Shown: positions 8,445-32,512 of the stretch, piece after piece
Numbering within the stretch: position 1 is the stretch's first letter
How the letters are laid out: each line of letters opens with the position of its first letter
NCBI GenBank assembly: GCA_905235525.1
Contig: CAJOLW010000028.1
Span: 1 to 36,717, forward strand
Direction: 5' to 3'
Origin: an uncultured Bacteroidaceae bacterium
GTDB taxonomy: Bacteria > Bacteroidota > Bacteroidia > Bacteroidales > Bacteroidaceae
DNA: 36,717 nt
Translations under genes and position numbers: made by a program
The notes under the pieces: generated by a model
What the model saw: only the letters and a program-made list of their open reading frames with translations
Database searches by the model: none
Told to the model about the DNA's origin: nothing

Positions 8445-8478
8445 TTTGTTTTTCTTTGAAAAATAATTCCTACTTTTG
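8445..8478 (+). promoter_or_regulatory. Promoter of the iron-sulfur/Tat operon
   Basis: TTTG (8445-8448), 22 bases, TACTTTTG (8471-8478). The -7 box fits TAnnTTTG and lies 42 bases upstream of the ATG at 8521. It is divergent from the cysS promoter. Confidence 0.5.
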
Positions 8479-8520: not shown

Positions 8521-10107
8521 ATGCTGAAACTAACCCGTCGAATTCTCGCCATTGTGTTTTGGCTGGGAATCACACTTTTATTTCTCGACTTCACGGGAAC
8601 TGTACAACCTTTCCTCGGTTGGATGGCAAAAATGCAGTTCCTGCCCAGTGTGATGGCGATGAATCTCATCACTATTGCCATTGTGGTGATTGCCACCCTC
8701 ATCATGGGGCGACTCTACTGCTCCATCGTCTGTCCCCTCGGCGTCATGCAGGACTTTTTTGCATGGATTGGGCGATGGAAAGTATTCCGCAAGAACAAGA
8801 AAGCAAAGTTCGCCAACAAGTACAGTTATTCGGAAGAGAAGAAGTGGCTGCGACTCACAGTGCTCGTCCTTTTCATCATCATGCTGTTGGCAGGATTCAA
8901 TGCAGGCATGGTGCTTCTGGCACCTTACAGTGCCTATGGACGCATTGTCGCCTCACTGCTACAACCTATCTATATAGGCATCAACAATCTGCTTGCCCAA
9001 TGGTCGGAAGCGCATGACAACTTCCTCTTCTATCAGGTGGAGCCGCATGAGAACCCCACCCTTCTCATCATCGTGGCTGCGGTGACAGCCATTGTGCTCT
9101 TTGTGCTTGCTTTCATGCATGGACGCACTTACTGCAACACTATCTGCCCCGTGGGCACTACGCTGGGGTATCTTGCCAAGTTCTCATGGCTGAAAATGCA
9201 GGTTCAAGAAGACAAGTGCATCAAATGCGGGCTCTGCGAGAAGAACTGCAAGGCGGCTTGCATCAAGGTGGAGAAGGGGCAACCCGTCAAATTTGACTAT
9301 ACACGATGCGTGGCATGTGGTGATTGTCAAGCGGTATGTGGCAAGAGTGCGCTGCATCTGGTTCCAACCAAGAAAAGAAGCAAAGCCTCCAGCCATGCTG
9401 ATGCCGCATCCGACCTTTCGCGCCGCTCCTTCCTTGCCGTCACGGGCACGGCTGTTGCGGCTGCCACCCTCAAGGCACAGGAGAAAACGACAGATGGTGG
9501 ACTCGCAACTATCGAAGACAAGGTCATTCCTGAACGCAAGACACCACTCACCCCTCCCGGCTCACTCTCGGCTGCCAATCTGCAACAGCATTGCACCGCT
9601 TGTCAACTCTGTATTGCCAACTGCCCCAACGGGGTGTTGCGTCCATCCACCAACATGGAGCATTTTTTGCAGCCCGAAATGCAATATGACAAAGGCTATT
9701 GCCGTCCTGAATGCACACGTTGTGCCGATGTTTGTCCGGCTGGAGCCATCCGCCCCATCTCAAAAGAAGAAAAGACGGCTATACAAATCGGTCATGCCGT
9801 GTGGGTGAAGGAGAATTGTCTGCCCATTGCCGACGAACAGAGGTGTGGCAGTTGTGCTCGCCATTGCCCTGCTCAAGCCATCCAGATGGTGCCCATTGAC
9901 ACAAGCATCAAGCAGAACCCCGATGACCAACAGTGGTATGATGGTGAGGGCAACAAGTTGGATTGGCGCGCCGTGAACGACCTGCTGATGATACCTGTGG
10001 TCAACAATGAGAAATGTATTGGCTGTGGCAAGTGCGAGTACCTCTGTCCTGCTCGCCCATTCAGTGCCATCTATGTAGAAGGACACGAAAAACATCGCGA
10101 GATATGA
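8521..10107 (+). CDS. NapH-like membrane polyferredoxin with an internal Tat motif
   Basis: 528 residues. Four hydrophobic helices (about 5-25, 45-63, 112-137, 180-200) carry two NapH/NosR-type CxxxCP motifs on the cytoplasmic side (C67/C71 and C205/C209). Two [4Fe-4S] motifs follow (C233-C236-C239-C243 and C263-C266-C269-C273). Then comes SRRSFLAVTGTAVAAATL, with the twin arginines at 301-302 and a hydrophobic stretch after it. This looks like a Tat signal in the middle of the protein. Beyond it are four more cluster motifs (from C358, about C394, about C415 and C499). The positive-inside rule puts residues 210-300 in the cytoplasm. If the Tat motif works, residues ~325-528 face the periplasm. 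I infer electron transfer from a quinol or cytoplasmic donor to a periplasmic partner. The stop overlaps the next start (ATGA). Confidence 0.85.
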   Translation: MLKLTRRILAIVFWLGITLLFLDFTGTVQPFLGWMAKMQFLPSVMAMNLITIAIVVIATLIMGRLYCSIVCPLGVMQDFFAWIGRWKVFRKNKKAKFANKYSYSEEKKWLRLTVLVLFIIMLLAGFNAGMVLLAPYSAYGRIVASLLQPIYIGINNLLAQWSEAHDNFLFYQVEPHENPTLLIIVAAVTAIVLFVLAFMHGRTYCNTICPVGTTLGYLAKFSWLKMQVQEDKCIKCGLCEKNCKAACIKVEKGQPVKFDYTRCVACGDCQAVCGKSALHLVPTKKRSKASSHADAASDLSRRSFLAVTGTAVAAATLKAQEKTTDGGLATIEDKVIPERKTPLTPPGSLSAANLQQHCTACQLCIANCPNGVLRPSTNMEHFLQPEMQYDKGYCRPECTRCADVCPAGAIRPISKEEKTAIQIGHAVWVKENCLPIADEQRCGSCARHCPAQAIQMVPIDTSIKQNPDDQQWYDGEGNKLDWRAVNDLLMIPVVNNEKCIGCGKCEYLCPARPFSAIYVEGHEKHREI

Positions 10108-11519
10108 AAGACCTGAACAGAAGAGATTTCCTCAAGATAGCGGGGGCTGCCACAGCCACCGCAGCCATTGCCTCATGCGGAGGTAGTACAAACGGAGAAT
10201 TGGGTGACCTTGACCCTGCCGGACACCACACTGGAGCCATTCCTACGGATAAAATGACCTATCGCACCAATCCCAATACGGGCGACAAGGTGTCAATTCT
10301 CGGCTATGGTATGATGCGTTTGCCAAACAAGCCTGCCAGTCCCACCAGCGATCCCAGCGCACCAACTCCCGAAGAGATTGACCAGGAGCAGGTGAACAAA
10401 CTGGTGAAGTTCGCCCTCGACCATGGCGTGAACTATTTCGACACCAGCCCTGCCTACTGCCAAGGGCACTCGGAGGAGAGCACAGGCATTGCACTCAAGG
10501 CTTCTGGTTACGACCGTTCCAAGTTCTACATCGCCACTAAGTTGAGTAACTTTGCCCCCCAACAGCAAACCTACGAGGAGGGAGTAAAGATGTTCCAGAA
10601 CTCACTCAAATACTTGCAGACCGACTACATTGATTATCTGCTGCTGCACGCTGTGGGAGGAGGAGGTTTGGAGAATCTTCACCAACGCTTCCTCGACAAT
10701 GGCGTACTCGATTACCTGATGGAACAACGTGAAAAGGGGGTTATCCGCAACCTTGGATTCTCTTTTCATGGAGACGTGGAAGTGTTTGATTACCTACTCG
10801 CCAACCACGACAAATACCATTGGGACTTTGTACAGATTCAAATGAATTATGTGGATTGGAGACTTGCCAACGAGACTAACCCAAGCAATGTAGATGATTT
10901 GTATGGAGAGTTGGAGAAGCGAGGCATTCCTGCAGTCATCATGGAACCACTGCTTGGTGGACGTCTCTCGAAAATGCCCGATCACATCGTCGCCACCCTC
11001 AAGCAGCAACGTCCCGAGGATAGCGTGGCATCGTGGGCATTCCGATATGTAGGCAGCAAACCTAATGTGCTCACCGCCCTAAGTGGTATGACCTACATGG
11101 AACATTTGGAGGATAACCTGCGCACTTACAGCCCACTCACACCTCTCAACGAGCAGGAACAGAACTGGCTTGAGACAGAGATTGCAGACCTCTATGTATC
11201 CTACCCTATCATCCCTTGCAATGACTGCAAATACTGCATGCCTTGTCCCTTCGGACTTGACATTCCTGCCATTTTCGTTCACTACAACAAGTGCGTCAAC
11301 AAAGGAAATGTGCCAGAAAATCAGCAAGCGGCAAACTATCAGCAAGCACGACGAGCCTTCCTTGTCGGCTACGACCGCTCTGTGCCCAAACTCCGTCAGG
11401 CAAACCACTGCATCGGGTGCAACCGCTGTTCTCCTCATTGTCCGCAGAACATTCGTATTCCGCAGGAACTACAACGCATTGATGACTTTGTGGAGAAACT
11501 GAAACAAAACACTCTATAA
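10104..11519 (+). CDS. Tat-exported lipoprotein: aldo/keto reductase with C-terminal 2[4Fe-4S] domain
   Basis: 471 residues from ATG at 10104, which overlaps the previous stop by ATGA. A longer frame from 10014 has no support. The N-terminus is a Tat signal (NRRDFLKIAG, R6-R7) ending in a lipobox (IASC, C25), so the mature protein should be a lipid-anchored Tat substrate. The aldo/keto reductase barrel follows (GYGMMRLP, YFDTSPAY, ATKLS, DYLLLHAVG), with the Asp, Tyr, Lys and His of the catalytic tetrad all present. Near the C-terminus CNDCKYCMPCP and CIGCNRCSPHCP form a two-cluster ferredoxin domain. The family is known as iron-sulfur aldo/keto reductases, and the substrate is unknown. Close coupling to the upstream polyferredoxin suggests that it receives or delivers electrons there. 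Confidence 0.9.
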   Translation: MKDLNRRDFLKIAGAATATAAIASCGGSTNGELGDLDPAGHHTGAIPTDKMTYRTNPNTGDKVSILGYGMMRLPNKPASPTSDPSAPTPEEIDQEQVNKLVKFALDHGVNYFDTSPAYCQGHSEESTGIALKASGYDRSKFYIATKLSNFAPQQQTYEEGVKMFQNSLKYLQTDYIDYLLLHAVGGGGLENLHQRFLDNGVLDYLMEQREKGVIRNLGFSFHGDVEVFDYLLANHDKYHWDFVQIQMNYVDWRLANETNPSNVDDLYGELEKRGIPAVIMEPLLGGRLSKMPDHIVATLKQQRPEDSVASWAFRYVGSKPNVLTALSGMTYMEHLEDNLRTYSPLTPLNEQEQNWLETEIADLYVSYPIIPCNDCKYCMPCPFGLDIPAIFVHYNKCVNKGNVPENQQAANYQQARRAFLVGYDRSVPKLRQANHCIGCNRCSPHCPQNIRIPQELQRIDDFVEKLKQNTL

Positions 11520-11542
11520 CCCAACTCTAAAACCCAAACAAA

Positions 11543-11758
11543 ATGATACAGCCCTTAATCCTCGGTCTCGGATTGCAAGAGATTATCGTTATTCTTGTCA
11601 TCGTACTCCTCCTCTTCGGCGGAAAGAAAATCCCCGAACTCATGCGTGGTGCAGGCAAGGGTGTCCGTGCATTCAAGGACGGCATGAAAGAACCCACCAT
11701 GGATGATGAAGTGAAAAATGATGGCACGACAAGCGATGAGGTAAAAGATGAAAAGTGA
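11543..11758 (+). CDS. tatA: Sec-independent protein translocase subunit TatA
   Basis: 71 residues. A single N-terminal membrane helix (LQEIIVILVIVLLLFGGKK) is followed by the amphipathic helix IPELMRGAGKGVRAFKDGM, with the FG hinge and conserved Pro and Gly residues of TatA/E. An acidic, charged tail ends the protein. TatA forms the pore that lets folded proteins cross the inner membrane. It starts 23 bases after the reductase stop. Its stop (TGA, 11756-11758) is in the same reading frame as tatC. Confidence 0.93.
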   Translation: MIQPLILGLGLQEIIVILVIVLLLFGGKKIPELMRGAGKGVRAFKDGMKEPTMDDEVKNDGTTSDEVKDEK

Positions 11759-11773
11759 AAATTTGCCATTGCC

Positions 11774-12502
11774 TTGACTTTCTGGGACCATCTTGAAGAA
11801 CTGCGTCATGTGCTACTGCGATGTATCATTGTCATAGCACTTTTCGCCATCCTCGCCTTTGTGTTCAAAGACGAGGTTTTTGCCATTATCTTCGCCCCTA
11901 AGAGCCCCGACTTCCTGCCATGTCTTTTCGGTTCATCTCCTGACATACAACTCATTAACACAGAACTGACCCGTCAGTTCATTATCCACATGATGACTAG
12001 TTTTTATGTCGGTCTAATCGTGGCAGCACCTTACATCATCTATGAACTATACCGCTTTATTTCCCCTGCCTTATACGAAAACGAGCGGCGCTATTCTACG
12101 CCTCTCGTCGTCTCTGCCTATGTGATGTTCATGGTAGGCACACTTTTCAGTTATTTCATTGTTTTCCCCATCACATTCCGCTTCCTGGGCAACTACCAAG
12201 TGGAAAAATCGGTGGAAAACCTCATCTCACTGGAAAGTTACATCGACACCCTCGTATTCCTTTCTCTCGCCATGGGACTCGTTTTCGAAATTCCCATCCT
12301 TTCATGGTTATTGGGACGACTCGGCATCCTCCACAAAGGACAGATGCAACAATATCGTCGTCATGCCATCATCATCATCTTGGTCATTGCCGCCATCATC
12401 ACCCCCACTTCCGATGCTTTCACGCTCGCCATCGTATCAGTGCCCATGTACATCCTCTATGAGGTGAGCATTCTGCTCGTTCCGCGTTCACAATGCCGCT
12501 AA
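11774..12502 (+). CDS. tatC: Sec-independent protein translocase subunit TatC (start uncertain)
   Basis: 242 residues from a TTG at 11774. It is the Tat signal receptor. TFWDHLEELRHVLLRC matches the conserved N-terminal cytoplasmic motif with its key Glu, and FISPALYENERR carries the conserved periplasmic-loop Glu. Six membrane helices can be traced. No ATG lies in frame between the tatA stop and this point. An ATG at 11748 opens a nine-codon frame that stops across the TTG (11775-11777), so one missing base may have cut off the original start. The 3' end overlaps the convergent coaX by 15 bases. The C-terminus is short but normal for the family. Confidence 0.85.
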   Translation: MTFWDHLEELRHVLLRCIIVIALFAILAFVFKDEVFAIIFAPKSPDFLPCLFGSSPDIQLINTELTRQFIIHMMTSFYVGLIVAAPYIIYELYRFISPALYENERRYSTPLVVSAYVMFMVGTLFSYFIVFPITFRFLGNYQVEKSVENLISLESYIDTLVFLSLAMGLVFEIPILSWLLGRLGILHKGQMQQYRRHAIIIILVIAAIITPTSDAFTLAIVSVPMYILYEVSILLVPRSQCR

Positions 12503-17445: not shown

Positions 17446-18132
17446 ATGGAAGATTTCGTCCATCTACACGTACACACCCAATATAGCATCCTTGACGGAC
17501 AGGCAGCCATTCCGAAGTTAGTGGATAAGGCAATCAACAATGGAATGCGAGGCATGGCCATAACCGACCACGGCAACATGTTCGGCATCAAGGAGTTTTT
17601 CAATTATTGCAATAAGGTGAACAAGGGTAAATCCGAAGAGGAGAAATTCAAACCCATCTTCGGATGCGAAGTGTACTGTGCCCGTCGGGATCTTCATTCA
17701 AAAGAAAACAATGCCCTCGACAAGAGCGGATGGCATCTCATTCTGTTAGCCAAAAACGAAGTTGGTTACCACAATTTGGTCAAGATTGTGAGTGAAGCAT
17801 GGGTGGACGGCTATTACCACCGCCCCCGCACCGACCACAAAGCCATCGAGAAGCACCACGAAGGACTGATAGCCTCATCTGCATGCTTGGCTGGCGAAAT
17901 TCCACGCTACATCAAAAATGGGCAGATTGAAGAAGCCGAGAAGTCCATCCAGTGGTTCAAAAGTATCTTTGGCGATGACTTCTATATTGAGTTGATGCGC
18001 CATGAGGTGAAAGACCCCATGCAGCGCGCCAACAGAGACACCTACAAAGAACAGAAAGCGATAGAGCCCACCTTGATTGAGTTGGCACACAAATACAATG
18101 TGAAACTCATCTGCACCAACGATCGTGGATGA
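17446..18132 (+). CDS. dnaE: DNA polymerase III alpha subunit, N-terminal (PHP) part of a split dnaE
   Basis: 228 residues covering the PHP domain. VHLHVHTQYSILDG and AITDHGNMFGI carry the metal-site His residues. GCEVYCA, WHLILLAKN and SSACLAGE follow as in intact Bacteroidetes DnaE. The frame ends at NDRG-stop, exactly where intact proteins read TNDVHFVDEENAEAHDR. The sequence fits loss of 8 bases (equivalent to GTGCATTT) after GAT at 18121-18123. Full-length DnaE is about 1,230 residues, and the two parts here sum to that. Transcription starts from a -7 box at 17421-17428. Confidence 0.9.
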   Translation: MEDFVHLHVHTQYSILDGQAAIPKLVDKAINNGMRGMAITDHGNMFGIKEFFNYCNKVNKGKSEEEKFKPIFGCEVYCARRDLHSKENNALDKSGWHLILLAKNEVGYHNLVKIVSEAWVDGYYHRPRTDHKAIEKHHEGLIASSACLAGEIPRYIKNGQIEEAEKSIQWFKSIFGDDFYIELMRHEVKDPMQRANRDTYKEQKAIEPTLIELAHKYNVKLICTNDRG

Positions 18133-21100
18133 GGAGAATGCCGAAGCACATGACAGACTTCTCTGTCTCTCCACAGGTAAAGACTTGGATGACTCCAACC
18201 GTATGCTCTACAGCAAGCAGGAATGGTTCAAGACACGTGAAGAGATGAACGATGTTTTCAAAGACATTCCCGAGGCACTAAGCAACACGATAGAGATTCT
18301 TAACAAAGTCGAGACATACAGCATTGATCATGCCCCCATCATGCCCTTCTTCGCCATCCCCGAAGAGTTTGGCACCGAGAAGGAATGGCGTGAGAAATTC
18401 ACTGACGAGGACATCTTCAACGAGTTCACCCGCGATGAAAACGGGAATGTTGTGCTGTCACAGGAAGAGGCTGAGAAAAAGATTAAGAAACTCGGTGGAA
18501 TCGACAAGTTGTACCGTATCAAGTTCGAGGCAGACTACCTCAAGAAGATTACCTATGACGGTGCCAAACGACTCTACGGCGACCCAGTTCCCGACCATGT
18601 GAAGACTCTGCTGGACTTTGAGTTGCATGTAATGAAAACAATGGGCTTTCCTGGGTACTTCCTCATTGTGCAGGACTTCATCAACTCTGCTCGAAAAGAG
18701 TTAGGTGTATGGGTGGGACCCGGACGTGGCTCTGCTGCGGGAAGTGCTGTGGCATATTGTTTGGGCATCACCAAGATAGACCCTATCAAATACGACCTGC
18801 TGTTTGAACGTTTCTTGAATCCAGACCGTATTTCTTTGCCTGATATTGATACCGACTTCGATGACGACGGACGTGGCAAGGTGTTACAATGGGTAACCGA
18901 GAAATACGGAGCCGAGAAAGTGGCGCATATCATCACCTATGGCACCATGGCAACGAAACTTGCCATCAAGGACGTGGCGCGTGTACAAAAAGTGCCACTG
19001 GCAACCGTGAATGCCTTGTGTAAAGCCATTCCAGACCGACTGCCTAATGGAAAGAAGATGAATCTGGCAAACGCCATCGAATGCGTACCAGAACTGAAGG
19101 ATGCTGCTACTTCACCCGACCCGCTGTTGCGTGACACCATGCGCTTTGCACAGATGTTAGAAAACAATGTGCGCAACACTGGTGTACATGCTTGTGGCAC
19201 CATCATCTGCCGCGATGCCATCGACGACTGGGTTCCCGTAAGCACTGCTGATGATAAGGAAACGGGAGAGAAACTGAGATGCACACAATATGATGGGCAT
19301 GTGATTGAAGAGACCGGACTTATCAAGATGGACTTTCTCGGTCTGAAAACGTTATCACAGTTAAAAGAAGCCGTAGCAAATGTCAAAGAAAGTCTGGGTA
19401 TCACCATTGATGTTGACCAATTCAACATTCAAGACCCTGCCACCTACCAGCTCTACTGCGATGGAAGAACCGTAGGAACCTTTCAGTTTGAATCAGCAGG
19501 TATGCAGAAGTACCTTCGCGAATTGCAACCCAATGTCTTTGAGGATCTGATTGCCATGAACGCCCTCTATCGACCGGGACCTATGGACTATATTCCCGAT
19601 TTCATCGATAGAAAACAGGGGAGAAAACCCATTGAATACGACATTCCTTGCATGGAGAAATATCTGAAGGACACTTATGGAATCACCGTTTACCAAGAGC
19701 AGGTGATGCTCCTGTCCCGACAATTGGCAGACTTCACCCGTGGTGAAAGTGATGCCCTCCGTAAGGCGATGGGTAAGAAGAAAAAGGACATCGTTGATGC
19801 GATGAAACCAAAGTTCATAGAGGGGGGTAAAAAGAACGGGCACGACCCCAAGATTCTCGATAAGATATGGAGTGACTGGGAGAAATTCGCTTCCTATGCC
19901 TTCAACAAGTCGCATGCCACCTGCTACTCGTGGGTGGCTTACCAAACCGCATTCCTCAAGGCCAACTTCCCATCTCAATTCATGGCTGCTGTCATGAGCC
20001 GTTCGCTCGACAACATCACTGAGATCCGCAAACTGATGGATGAGTGCAAATCCATGGGCATCAACACATTGGGACCAGATGTCAACGAGTCCCGCCATAA
20101 GTTCTCCGTCAACTTCGAAAGCGATATACGTTTCGGTATGGCAGCCATCAAGGGAGTGGGTGAATCTGCCGTACAAGCCATCATCGAAGAACGTGAAAAG
20201 AATGGTCCTTACACATCCTTCTTCGACTTCTTCGAACGTGTGAATCTTTCACAATGCAACAAGAAAAACATTGAAAATCTGATTCTTGCCGGTGCATTTG
20301 ACTGTTTCACCGACATCAGCCGAGAAACATTTTTCGCTCCAGGACCACGCCAAGGAGAGAACTTCCTTGATGTGATGGTGCGTTATGGCAACAATTTCCA
20401 ACAAGACAAGTTCCAAGCACAAACTTCCTTATTTGGGGGTATGGACGTCTCTGTCGCCCATCCGCCCATTCCCAAGAATGTGCCTGCATGGAGCAACATT
20501 GAACGACTCAACAAAGAACGCGATTTGGTGGGCATTTACCTTTCAGCACACCCACTTGACGAATACGCTATCATCCTCGACTATGTATGCAATACGAAGA
20601 TGAATCAATTGGAAGAGCAGAAAGAAGAACTCTCCAAGATGGAAGAAGTCACCGTTGGCGGTATTGTCACAAACGTCCGAACCGGAGAAAGCAAAACTGG
20701 CAGTCCCTACGGGATTGTCAAGATAGAAGACTTTGTGGGCAGTGGCGAATTACCACTCTTCGGCACCGATTGGGTCACCTACCGAAACTTCTTCATGGAA
20801 GGTGCTTCCCTGTTCATCCGAATCAAGGTGGAACCTCACAGATTCCGTCCTGGCATTTTCAACATCAATGTCAAATCTGTTGAACTGATGTCAGAAGTGA
20901 AAGACAAAGTAATCAAAAAAATCACCTTTGATGTACCCCTCGACAAACTCACCTCAACGATGGTGGAAGACTTGGCAGAAATTGTGAAGGAGAACCCAGG
21001 CGAAGCAGACCTTGTCTTCAACATTCATTCCTCCGACAGCAACAAAGTGTCCCTCATGTCACGCAAAGTAAAAGTGAGGGTGGAGAAACACCTCGTTCAA

Positions 21101-21142
21101 TATATCAAAGAACATAATGAGATTGGCATAAAAGTGAATTAA
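18125..21142 (+). CDS. dnaE: DNA polymerase III alpha subunit, polymerase part of a split dnaE
   Basis: 1,005 residues from a GTG at 18125 that overlaps the upstream stop by 8 bases; the GTG is the natural Val of the intact protein. The palm is intact: GPGRGSAAGSAVAY, then PDIDTDFDDDGRG with the catalytic Asp residues (about 18840-18866). Fingers (MDYIPDFIDRKQGR, FTRGESDALRKAMGKKKK), a helix-hairpin-helix region, a beta-clamp motif (QTSLFG, near 20420) and an OB domain (VTVGGIVTNVRTGESKTG) follow. The frame is open for 3 kb, so no further decay is seen. Whether it is made by reinitiation, or the break is an error or a variant, cannot be told here. dnaE is normally essential. Confidence 0.92.
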   Translation: MDEENAEAHDRLLCLSTGKDLDDSNRMLYSKQEWFKTREEMNDVFKDIPEALSNTIEILNKVETYSIDHAPIMPFFAIPEEFGTEKEWREKFTDEDIFNEFTRDENGNVVLSQEEAEKKIKKLGGIDKLYRIKFEADYLKKITYDGAKRLYGDPVPDHVKTLLDFELHVMKTMGFPGYFLIVQDFINSARKELGVWVGPGRGSAAGSAVAYCLGITKIDPIKYDLLFERFLNPDRISLPDIDTDFDDDGRGKVLQWVTEKYGAEKVAHIITYGTMATKLAIKDVARVQKVPLATVNALCKAIPDRLPNGKKMNLANAIECVPELKDAATSPDPLLRDTMRFAQMLENNVRNTGVHACGTIICRDAIDDWVPVSTADDKETGEKLRCTQYDGHVIEETGLIKMDFLGLKTLSQLKEAVANVKESLGITIDVDQFNIQDPATYQLYCDGRTVGTFQFESAGMQKYLRELQPNVFEDLIAMNALYRPGPMDYIPDFIDRKQGRKPIEYDIPCMEKYLKDTYGITVYQEQVMLLSRQLADFTRGESDALRKAMGKKKKDIVDAMKPKFIEGGKKNGHDPKILDKIWSDWEKFASYAFNKSHATCYSWVAYQTAFLKANFPSQFMAAVMSRSLDNITEIRKLMDECKSMGINTLGPDVNESRHKFSVNFESDIRFGMAAIKGVGESAVQAIIEEREKNGPYTSFFDFFERVNLSQCNKKNIENLILAGAFDCFTDISRETFFAPGPRQGENFLDVMVRYGNNFQQDKFQAQTSLFGGMDVSVAHPPIPKNVPAWSNIERLNKERDLVGIYLSAHPLDEYAIILDYVCNTKMNQLEEQKEELSKMEEVTVGGIVTNVRTGESKTGSPYGIVKIEDFVGSGELPLFGTDWVTYRNFFMEGASLFIRIKVEPHRFRPGIFNINVKSVELMSEVKDKVIKKITFDVPLDKLTSTMVEDLAEIVKENPGEADLVFNIHSSDSNKVSLMSRKVKVRVEKHLVQYIKEHNEIGIKVN

Positions 21143-31570: not shown

Positions 31571-32512
31571 CTATTTTTTGAAACCGACAAACCGTCCGTT
31601 GCTGTAATGCATCTTCGGCAGCACACCGCCACGCACATGGCCTGGGGCGAAGAGTTCGCCGATGGTCTGCATCTCCTCGTCGGTGAGGGTGATGTCGAGG
31701 GCACGCAGCGAGTCGGTGAGGTGGTCGGGATGGGTGGTACCGATAATGGCGAGCATGTCGGGGTTCTTCTGCAGCACCCAGGCGATGGCGAGGTTGCTGG
31801 TGGAGCAGCCCTTGTCGTCGGCCATCTCCTTCAACAGGCGCACGATGGCGCGGTTGGGTTCGATGTCCTCTGGCTTATACAAGAACGGCAGGATGCTTGG
31901 CGTGCGCTCGCCCGTGGCAAAGCCGTCGGTCAGCAGTCCGTGACCCAGCAAGCCGTAGGCGATGACTGGGATGCCCAGTTCACGGCAGGTGGGCAAATCC
32001 TCGACCTCCATCTGTCGGCTGAGCAGCGAATATTCCTTCTCGAAGTATTTGATGGGGCACACTGCGTTGCCACGTTTCAGTTCGTCGGCAGTGGTTTCCG
32101 TCATACCCACGTGGCGCACAAGACCCTCTTTCACCAGTTCCTGTACGGCACCGATGACCTCCTCCACGGGGTAGGCATCGTCCATGCGCGACGGCTCGTA
32201 GAGGTCGATGTAATCCAGTCCTAAGCGACTGAGACTGTACATCAGATGTGCTCTAACGTTGAACGGGTTGACATCCAGCCCATACAGCGAACCCTTAGTG
32301 GGCAGCGAGCCGAATTTCACACTGACGAAATACTTGTCGCGCGGATGCTGGCGCAAGGCGTTTCCCAGGACAATCTCGCTCTCGCCGTTCTGATAAAACT
32401 CTGCCACGTTAAACATCGTCACTCCGTGGTCAAGTGCCGCATCAACGGTGCGGATACTGCTCTCTTCATTTCTGCGGGCCATACCACTACAGCCCAGTCC
32501 GATTCTATTCAT
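31571..32512 (-). CDS. Aldo/keto reductase with an altered catalytic tetrad
   Basis: 313 residues, cytoplasmic. The fold is clear: IGLGCSGM, TMFNVAEFYQNGESE, SVKFG, DYIDLYEPSR, VIAYGLLGHG and LAIAWVLQ. The active-site Tyr (Y40) and Lys (K66) are present. The usual Asp is Asn35, and the His position reads YEPSR, as in AKR13-like enzymes that carry Y-x-P-x-R. It is NADPH-dependent by family, substrate unknown. It starts 18 bases after the lipoprotein gene upstream and is likely part of the same transcript. Confidence 0.9.
   Translation of the reverse strand: MNRIGLGCSGMARRNEESSIRTVDAALDHGVTMFNVAEFYQNGESEIVLGNALRQHPRDKYFVSVKFGSLPTKGSLYGLDVNPFNVRAHLMYSLSRLGLDYIDLYEPSRMDDAYPVEEVIGAVQELVKEGLVRHVGMTETTADELKRGNAVCPIKYFEKEYSLLSRQMEVEDLPTCRELGIPVIAYGLLGHGLLTDGFATGERTPSILPFLYKPEDIEPNRAIVRLLKEMADDKGCSTSNLAIAWVLQKNPDMLAIIGTTHPDHLTDSLRALDITLTDEEMQTIGELFAPGHVRGGVLPKMHYSNGRFVGFKK

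Follow-up and report, generated by a model that had tools for sequence, protein, structure and literature searches.

The operon and its genes

The stretch of DNA analysed here (36,717 nucleotides; hereafter the window) comes from an uncultured Bacteroidaceae bacterium (GCA_905235525.1) and carries, on its forward strand, an operon in which two iron-sulfur proteins with twin-arginine translocation (Tat) signals precede the tatA and tatC genes of a Tat translocase. The first gene (8521..10107) encodes a polyferredoxin of 528 amino acids (PFD), in which a NapH-like membrane part with clusters is fused to a NapG-like ferredoxin part. The second (10104..11519, from the ATG at 10104) encodes a protein of 471 amino acids, AKR-Fd, that combines an aldo/keto reductase (AKR) with a C-terminal two-[4Fe-4S] ferredoxin domain. 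They are followed by tatA (11543..11758, 71 amino acids) and tatC (11774..12502, 242 amino acids, TTG start). The ATG of AKR-Fd at 10104 overlaps the TGA of PFD at 10105-10107, and gaps of 23 and 15 bases separate AKR-Fd from tatA and tatA from tatC. Upstream of the operon lies the divergent cysS and downstream the convergent type III pantothenate kinase gene coaX, which overlaps the end of tatC by 15 bases. The initial annotation of this DNA had named the same four genes, with twin arginines at residues 301-302 of the first product and 6-7 of the second, and the open reading frames (ORFs) bear out its coordinates, these arginine positions, the ATGA coupling of the first two genes and the gaps.

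Both translocase genes match their families above the cut-offs (tatA: TatA_B_E PF02416 64.3 bits, TIGR01411 69.8 bits with a cut-off of 53.9; tatC: TatC PF00902 227.8 bits, TIGR00945 191.2 bits with a cut-off of 132.7). The TatB model, run on this tatA only, gives 29.8 bits against a cut-off of 56.5. Judged from sequence, the TTG start of tatC is credible, because all matching relatives have an NTG codon at the same place: TTG, GTG or ATG directly precedes the (S/T)FWDHLE motif in 16 of the 16 rows that matched it among 29 sources searched (three of these rows, L207-L209, appear to duplicate L122, L121 and L128). A frame break at this point, where no in-frame ATG follows tatA, was considered and rejected, as the matching relatives start at the same NTG codon.

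Polyferredoxin

PFD matches Fer4 domains of Pfam above the cut-off, including Fer4_5 at 53.2 bits. NapH and then NapG models match successive parts of the protein, both far under their cut-offs (TIGR02163: 71.2 against 213.05; NF007012: 58.5 against 269; TIGR00397: 48.2 against 178.85). Four segments have a 19-residue hydropathy above 2 (residues 8-26, 44-62, 114-132 and 181-199), all of them N-terminal to the twin arginines, and stretches rich in lysine and arginine occupy 64-108 and 200-300; on hydropathy, this predicts an even number of spans, with the N-terminus inside, before the twin-arginine motif. The cysteines make up six [4Fe-4S] cluster sets and two CX3CP motifs (C67/C71 and C205/C209), nearly all invariant in the 35 rows of our alignment (A4). 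Two of the sets, of ferredoxin type, stand before the twin arginines and four after them; the 16 cysteines of these four, which belong to the C-terminal domain, are all invariant.

The internal Tat signal runs from R301 to A319 (9421..9477, RRSFLAVTGTAVAAATLKA followed by Q; TIGR01409 18.2 bits) and ends at a signal-peptidase-I-like site. R302 is invariant and R301 is at least 90% conserved. We surveyed this signal in 77 proteins, namely that of the window and those of the 76 out of 80 named loci (described below) whose ORF joined the PFD cluster. RR or KR with a hydrophobic region is found in 75/77; the script recognised no signal in L218 and L223, and in L218 the ORF start had been extended upstream, which shifted the searched region. 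By the general rule for signal peptidase I sites, a loose match follows the hydrophobic region in 69/77, and the window protein has the loose form only. A strict AxAQ ends the signal in 26/77, whereas 32,205 residues from other parts of these proteins contain none. The segment after the twin arginines (best 19-residue hydropathy 0.97, about 14 hydrophobic residues) looks nearer to a signal peptide than to a membrane span. Together, these features suggest that PFD of the Bacteroidales may be cut in two after export.

AKR-Fd

The second protein matches Aldo_ket_red (PF00248, 131.8 bits with a cut-off of 24), Fer4_9 (29.3 bits) and TAT_signal (28.8 bits), all above the cut-offs. Residues D113, Y118, K146 and H182, which we take from the AKR family to be the D/Y/K/H catalytic tetrad, are invariant in 42 rows. 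The Tat lipoprotein signal (10104..10178) is of the RRxFLK type, begins NRRDFLKIAG and ends in AIAS before the lipobox cysteine C25; R6 and R7 are invariant in the same 42 rows (alignment A3), which, with the invariant R302 of PFD, supports the twin-arginine signals that had been proposed for both proteins, and C25 is at least 90% conserved. In the whole genome, two proteins score above the 16.7-bit cut-off of the Tat signal model TIGR01409, AKR-Fd (25.8) and PFD (18.2); the model overlooks other likely Tat signals of this genome.

L-galactose dehydrogenases of the aldo/keto reductase superfamily (7smi and 8usu; 21-27% identity) have the barrel fold in common with AKR-Fd, and their sequences can be aligned to it around the catalytic residues. 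The GM-x8-N segment further along in AKR-Fd also aligns with these enzymes, with per-domain scores (6.9 and 9.2 bits) that are insignificant, and the tail segment gives only a weak sequence alignment to NAD-binding relatives. The Tat lipoprotein signal and the ferredoxin domain are extra in AKR-Fd.

Paralogues of AKR-Fd lie at L144:5518-6909 (55% identical) and L146:4835-6208 (49%); they have Tat-like signals and the lipobox is absent. Directly 5' of the L144 paralogue is an ORF that resembles a TonB receptor by eye, and directly 3' of it an ECF-S-like gene. The window itself holds a further aldo/keto reductase of 313 amino acids (31571-32512, PF00248), in which the Pfam scan reported no ferredoxin domain.

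Conservation in the genus and in the order

Our genus set comprised 25 genomes, that of the window and 24 others. Strong AKR matches were found in 16 of them and PFD in the same 16; the four genes are contiguous, in the order PFD-AKR-TatA-TatC, in 14 of these (tatC of G008 is cut by the contig end), so the annotated gene order is conserved in most genus genomes with the pair. TatC is present in 16/16 genomes with the pair and in 3/9 without it (Fisher p=0.0005). These three are G002, G005 and G016; tatA also occurs in G005 and G016, and tatC is located between cysS and coaX in G002 and G016 and beside cysS in G005. In G002, homology with the window breaks off shortly after cysS and, past some 212 unaligned bases, picks up again at window position 11731, where the final 28 bases of tatA remain; behind them is an open tatC as long as that of the window. 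At this site, a close relative therefore lacks PFD, AKR and almost the whole of tatA together. A cysS tree of 12 rows pairs the window's species with G002 (support 89/86); seven of its nine inner branches are open, and apart from this pairing the order of gain and loss is not resolved. An apparent split of PFD into two genes in G025 was rejected, since both halves run off contig ends.

A scan of named genomes gave at least 585 PFD-like loci, of which the best 80, all with Bacteroidales names, were used; several may duplicate genomes of the genus set. AKR adjoins PFD in 76 of the 80 (the exceptions are L226, L257, L261 and L273). A tatC on the same strand lies upstream in 24 and downstream in 20, which makes two opposite layouts. 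PFD followed by AKR is found in records of Bacteroides, Phocaeicola, Parabacteroides, Prevotella, Alistipes and Muribaculaceae, and a periplasmic oxidoreductase, probably quinone-linked, would therefore be widespread in the Bacteroidales. Cultured carriers include Bacteroides xylanisolvens XB1A (L241) and B. finegoldii DSM 17565 (L269), in neither of which is tatC adjacent.

We also took a sample of 198 genomes of the order, each at least 90% complete (PFD at E <=1e-60, TatC at E <=0.001). PFD was detected in 90 and TatC in 168, 166 of the latter above the Pfam cut-off. TatC occurs in 89/90 genomes with PFD and in 79/108 without (p=1e-7; 77/108 above the cut-off), a count that is based on PFD, not on AKR, and whose 90 genomes include distant PFDs of a DUF362 type. 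In four such distant cases (G026, G030, G037 and G038), PFD adjoins a DUF362-like protein with a Tat-like start in place of AKR; the DUF362 identity was established by Pfam for the G038 neighbour.

A second TatAC and other Tat-like signals

The genome of the window has a second TatAC, on contig C29, where it forms the end of a CXXX-repeat peptide operon (L006:4617-9075, corresponding to C29:14616-19074, minus strand). The order there is a Tat-lipoprotein-like CXXX peptide of 343 amino acids, a radical SAM maturase (TIGR04115, 638 bits), TIGR04119 and TIGR04116 proteins (both above their cut-offs), tatA and tatC. The peptide is under the TIGR04117 cut-off (30.7 against 50). This arrangement suggests that a cross-linked peptide of ribosomal origin is exported by Tat.

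We scanned the same genome for clients with a degenerate DNA pattern for RRxF(L/F)xxx(G/A), which other signal shapes escape. There were 50 matches, compared to 58 for the reversed control, so that the pattern alone is not enriched. Translation around all 50 gave six plausible signals by eye: PFD, AKR-Fd, two CXXX peptides (C29 and C59), and a ferredoxin and an NHL-like protein (both C35). The proposal that the operon's TatAC has no other clients fails on the four that lie outside it. The initial annotation had described the pair as the translocase's own two substrates and the system as self-contained. Because of the second TatAC, with its different probable client, and these four outside signals, "own substrates" is too strong. 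We suggest instead that PFD and AKR-Fd are probably the chief clients of the TatAC encoded in the same operon.

The second CXXX-repeat peptide (C59, L203:605-1054) has 149 amino acids, an SRRDFFKKAA signal and a lipobox-like cysteine. It is followed by a 313-amino-acid ORF resembling the partner of the C29 maturase, and no tat genes were noticed on this contig of 3981 bases. The C35 region (L206:6123-13383) is a redox cluster with two Tat-like signals, in which an NHL-like protein (342 amino acids), a ferredoxin (193) and a NapH-like protein (436) are followed by NuoE- and NuoF-like proteins. ORFs sized like those of C35, with weak Tat-signal matches, occur in G011 and G021, in which TatC was not found; the likeness is by size only.

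Proposed function and alternatives

We suggest, with a probability of roughly 0.6, that the operon encodes a periplasmic two-protein electron-transfer pair together with the presumably minimal translocase that makes it. Sec would insert PFD with four spans. The C-terminal four-cluster domain would fold in the cytoplasm and be passed across the membrane by TatAC by way of the internal Tat signal, which signal peptidase I may then cut. The same TatAC would export folded AKR-Fd, which would be anchored as a lipoprotein. Electrons would move between the menaquinone pool and the ferredoxin tail of AKR-Fd through the clusters of PFD, with the direction from quinol to PFD to AKR-Fd favoured, and the AKR barrel would reduce (or oxidise) a carbonyl or alcohol group of a small periplasmic molecule. 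Of this picture, the computations show the domains and motifs, the order of the genes, their conservation and their co-occurrence; the dependence on Tat in this organism, the topology, the cleavage, the electron flow with its direction, the cofactor, the substrate and the role of the pair as chief clients are inferred. A trans-membrane electron route had been proposed from the outset; the parts do fit a path that ends in a periplasmic lipoprotein, and it is the description of it as self-contained that is not supported.

The chemistry of the last step is the weak point of the proposal. Aldo/keto reductases usually depend on NAD(P)H, a cofactor that does not occur free in the periplasm, and no path by which [4Fe-4S] clusters could serve the site of an AKR is known to us. 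An NAD(P) that stays tightly bound while folded AKR-Fd is exported could link the two; in glucose-fructose oxidoreductase, tightly bound NAD(P) is exported with the folded enzyme. The structure model of PFD is poor (pLDDT 68.9); Foldseek gave no match for it with E <0.001, and the model was not used. Genomic observations also weigh against the proposal, quite apart from the second TatAC, the four outside signals and the scope of the PFD count. PFD-AKR is separate from tatAC in G003 and G014, and G005 and G016 hold tatAC beside cysS without the pair. No tatC was seen nearby in 36 of the 80 PFD loci, 27 of these being among the 64 with ample flanks. Like the DUF362-type neighbour that replaces AKR in the four distant genomes, this further weakens the notion of a self-contained system with its own substrates. 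One genome of the order sample with PFD (G115, 93% complete) gave no TatC, and completeness is just 55-88% in the six genomes of the genus without TatC. All counts come from related genomes, so that the p-values overstate the evidence.

Alternatively, TatAC could be the general Tat system of these bacteria and be next to two of its clients for historical reasons alone, with no further meaning to the operon. The presence of TatC in 79/108 genomes without PFD, the retention of tatAC beside cysS in G005 and G016 and the further Tat-like proteins of the window's own genome all fit this idea. It accounts poorly for linkage in both orientations in 44 of the 80 loci, for TatC in 89/90 genomes with PFD and for G002, which has lost the pair and tatA together; moreover, the other Tat-like signals are just four, found by one pattern. 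We consider it rather unlikely. A different alternative leaves the proteins in place and reverses the flow, with AKR-Fd as a periplasmic dehydrogenase that would feed electrons through PFD into the menaquinone pool. The L-galactose dehydrogenases are the nearest folds, in keeping with such a role; we nevertheless regard this direction as quite unlikely.

A further reading concerns the substrate and widens our preferred explanation; it is not its opposite. Companion genes on the same strand in the 80 PFD loci (flanks of up to 6 kb) include an ECF-S-like gene in 19, DUF1893 in 17, a TonB receptor in 10 and DUF362 in 5. These are hints of periplasmic processing of an imported molecule. The pair might then take part in a micronutrient uptake route, in which a TonB receptor imports the molecule, PFD and AKR-Fd reduce it with quinol electrons, the ECF-S-like protein takes it up and DUF1893 acts inside. 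The ECF-S-like gene sits on either side of PFD and tracks the pair in the genus (both in 14 genomes, pair only in 2, ECF-S only in 2, neither in 7; p=0.002), where adjacency was not found. The window's genome carries one, on C29, and a DUF362-like protein on C2; the near relatives L211 and L214 have the order DUF362-TonB-PFD-AKR-TatA-TatC. Set against this, the two ECF-S-like proteins tested score 22.2 and 30.1 bits, under the Pfam cut-off of 30.7, and the search of PDB sequences gave no match to the ECF-S-like protein at E <=10. The search for DUF1893 in the 25 genus genomes, that of the window included, gave no match, and DUF362 does not track the pair significantly (11/16 against 3/9 genus genomes, p=0.12). 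Most loci have no such companions, and the genomes are related to one another. DUF1893 (TM1506) is described as having a deaminase-like fold with auto-ADP-ribosylation (PMC8946771). On balance, the uptake route is unlikely as it stands. The fuller picture, a Bacteroidales route in which a TonB-imported molecule is reduced through PFD and AKR-Fd before ECF-S-like uptake, with the translocase in the operon and with PFD as a polyprotein cut into NapH-like and NapG-like proteins, is decidedly doubtful.

Relation to known systems

The closest described counterpart of PFD is the polyferredoxin of the delta-proteobacterium MLMS-1 (Q1NSB0), a NapH-NapG fusion of a dual Sec-Tat family, with reporter fusions to its spans that are Tat dependent; homologues are named from Chloroflexi, Nitrospirae and Euryarchaeota (Tooke et al. 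2017, PMC5449189). Both proteins have spans before an internal twin-arginine signal and four clusters after it. PFD has six classical sets and two CX3CP motifs, whereas seven clusters are reported for the MLMS-1 protein. The segment after the twin arginines is short and weakly hydrophobic, and a cleavage-like site ends it in 69/77 Bacteroidales PFDs, while in PMC5449189 a cleavage site was introduced into AmiA fusions. PFD may represent a case of a cleaved internal Tat signal. Unlike the MLMS-1 polyferredoxin, PFD is followed by AKR-Fd and tatAC in this operon. The NapGH quinol dehydrogenase of nitrate respiration has the same two modules and probably a similar topology; it is made from separate genes and serves nitrate reductase, whereas PFD is fused, has AKR-Fd as its partner and scores far under the NapH and NapG cut-offs.

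Translocase genes beside exported proteins have a precedent in the Bacilli, where phoD stands with tatCd and efeB with tatCy (PMC3827258). In the present case the substrates are of another kind, a pair of redox proteins, the bacteria belong to a Gram-negative order and the genes come in two layouts. TatA and TatC homologues are described in seven Bacteroides strains (PMC6281302). The combination of PFD, AKR-Fd and tatAC was not found in the accessible portions of the mostly open-access literature searched (including PMC10924467, PMC9397113, PMC10434189, PMC6281302 and PMC13185528). The view that no such system had been described therefore stands for the combination within that literature. It does not extend to the components: the first gene product is similar to the polyferredoxins of PMC5449189, and there are precedents for tat operons that include substrates (PMC3827258). 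Neither any single part nor the principle of encoding Tat clients beside their translocase is new; the combination is new in the literature searched. That literature turned up little on Tat clients in the Bacteroidales, for which the operon offers a testable role of Tat.

Other features of the window

A promoter-like pair lies ahead of PFD on the forward strand (8445..8478): TTTG at 8445-8448 and TAnnTTTG at 8471-8478, with a spacer of 22, according to what we take to be the Bacteroidota consensus. A TAnnTTTG box lies within 120 bases 5' of PFD in 12 of the 14 genus operons and the full TTTG/TAnnTTTG pair in 5/14, weak counts that come from related sequences with no chance control. Elsewhere in the window, the alpha subunit of DNA polymerase III is spread over two frames: an ORF with the PHP domain (17446-18132) overlaps one for the polymerase (18125-21142), which could reflect either a frame break or a true split.

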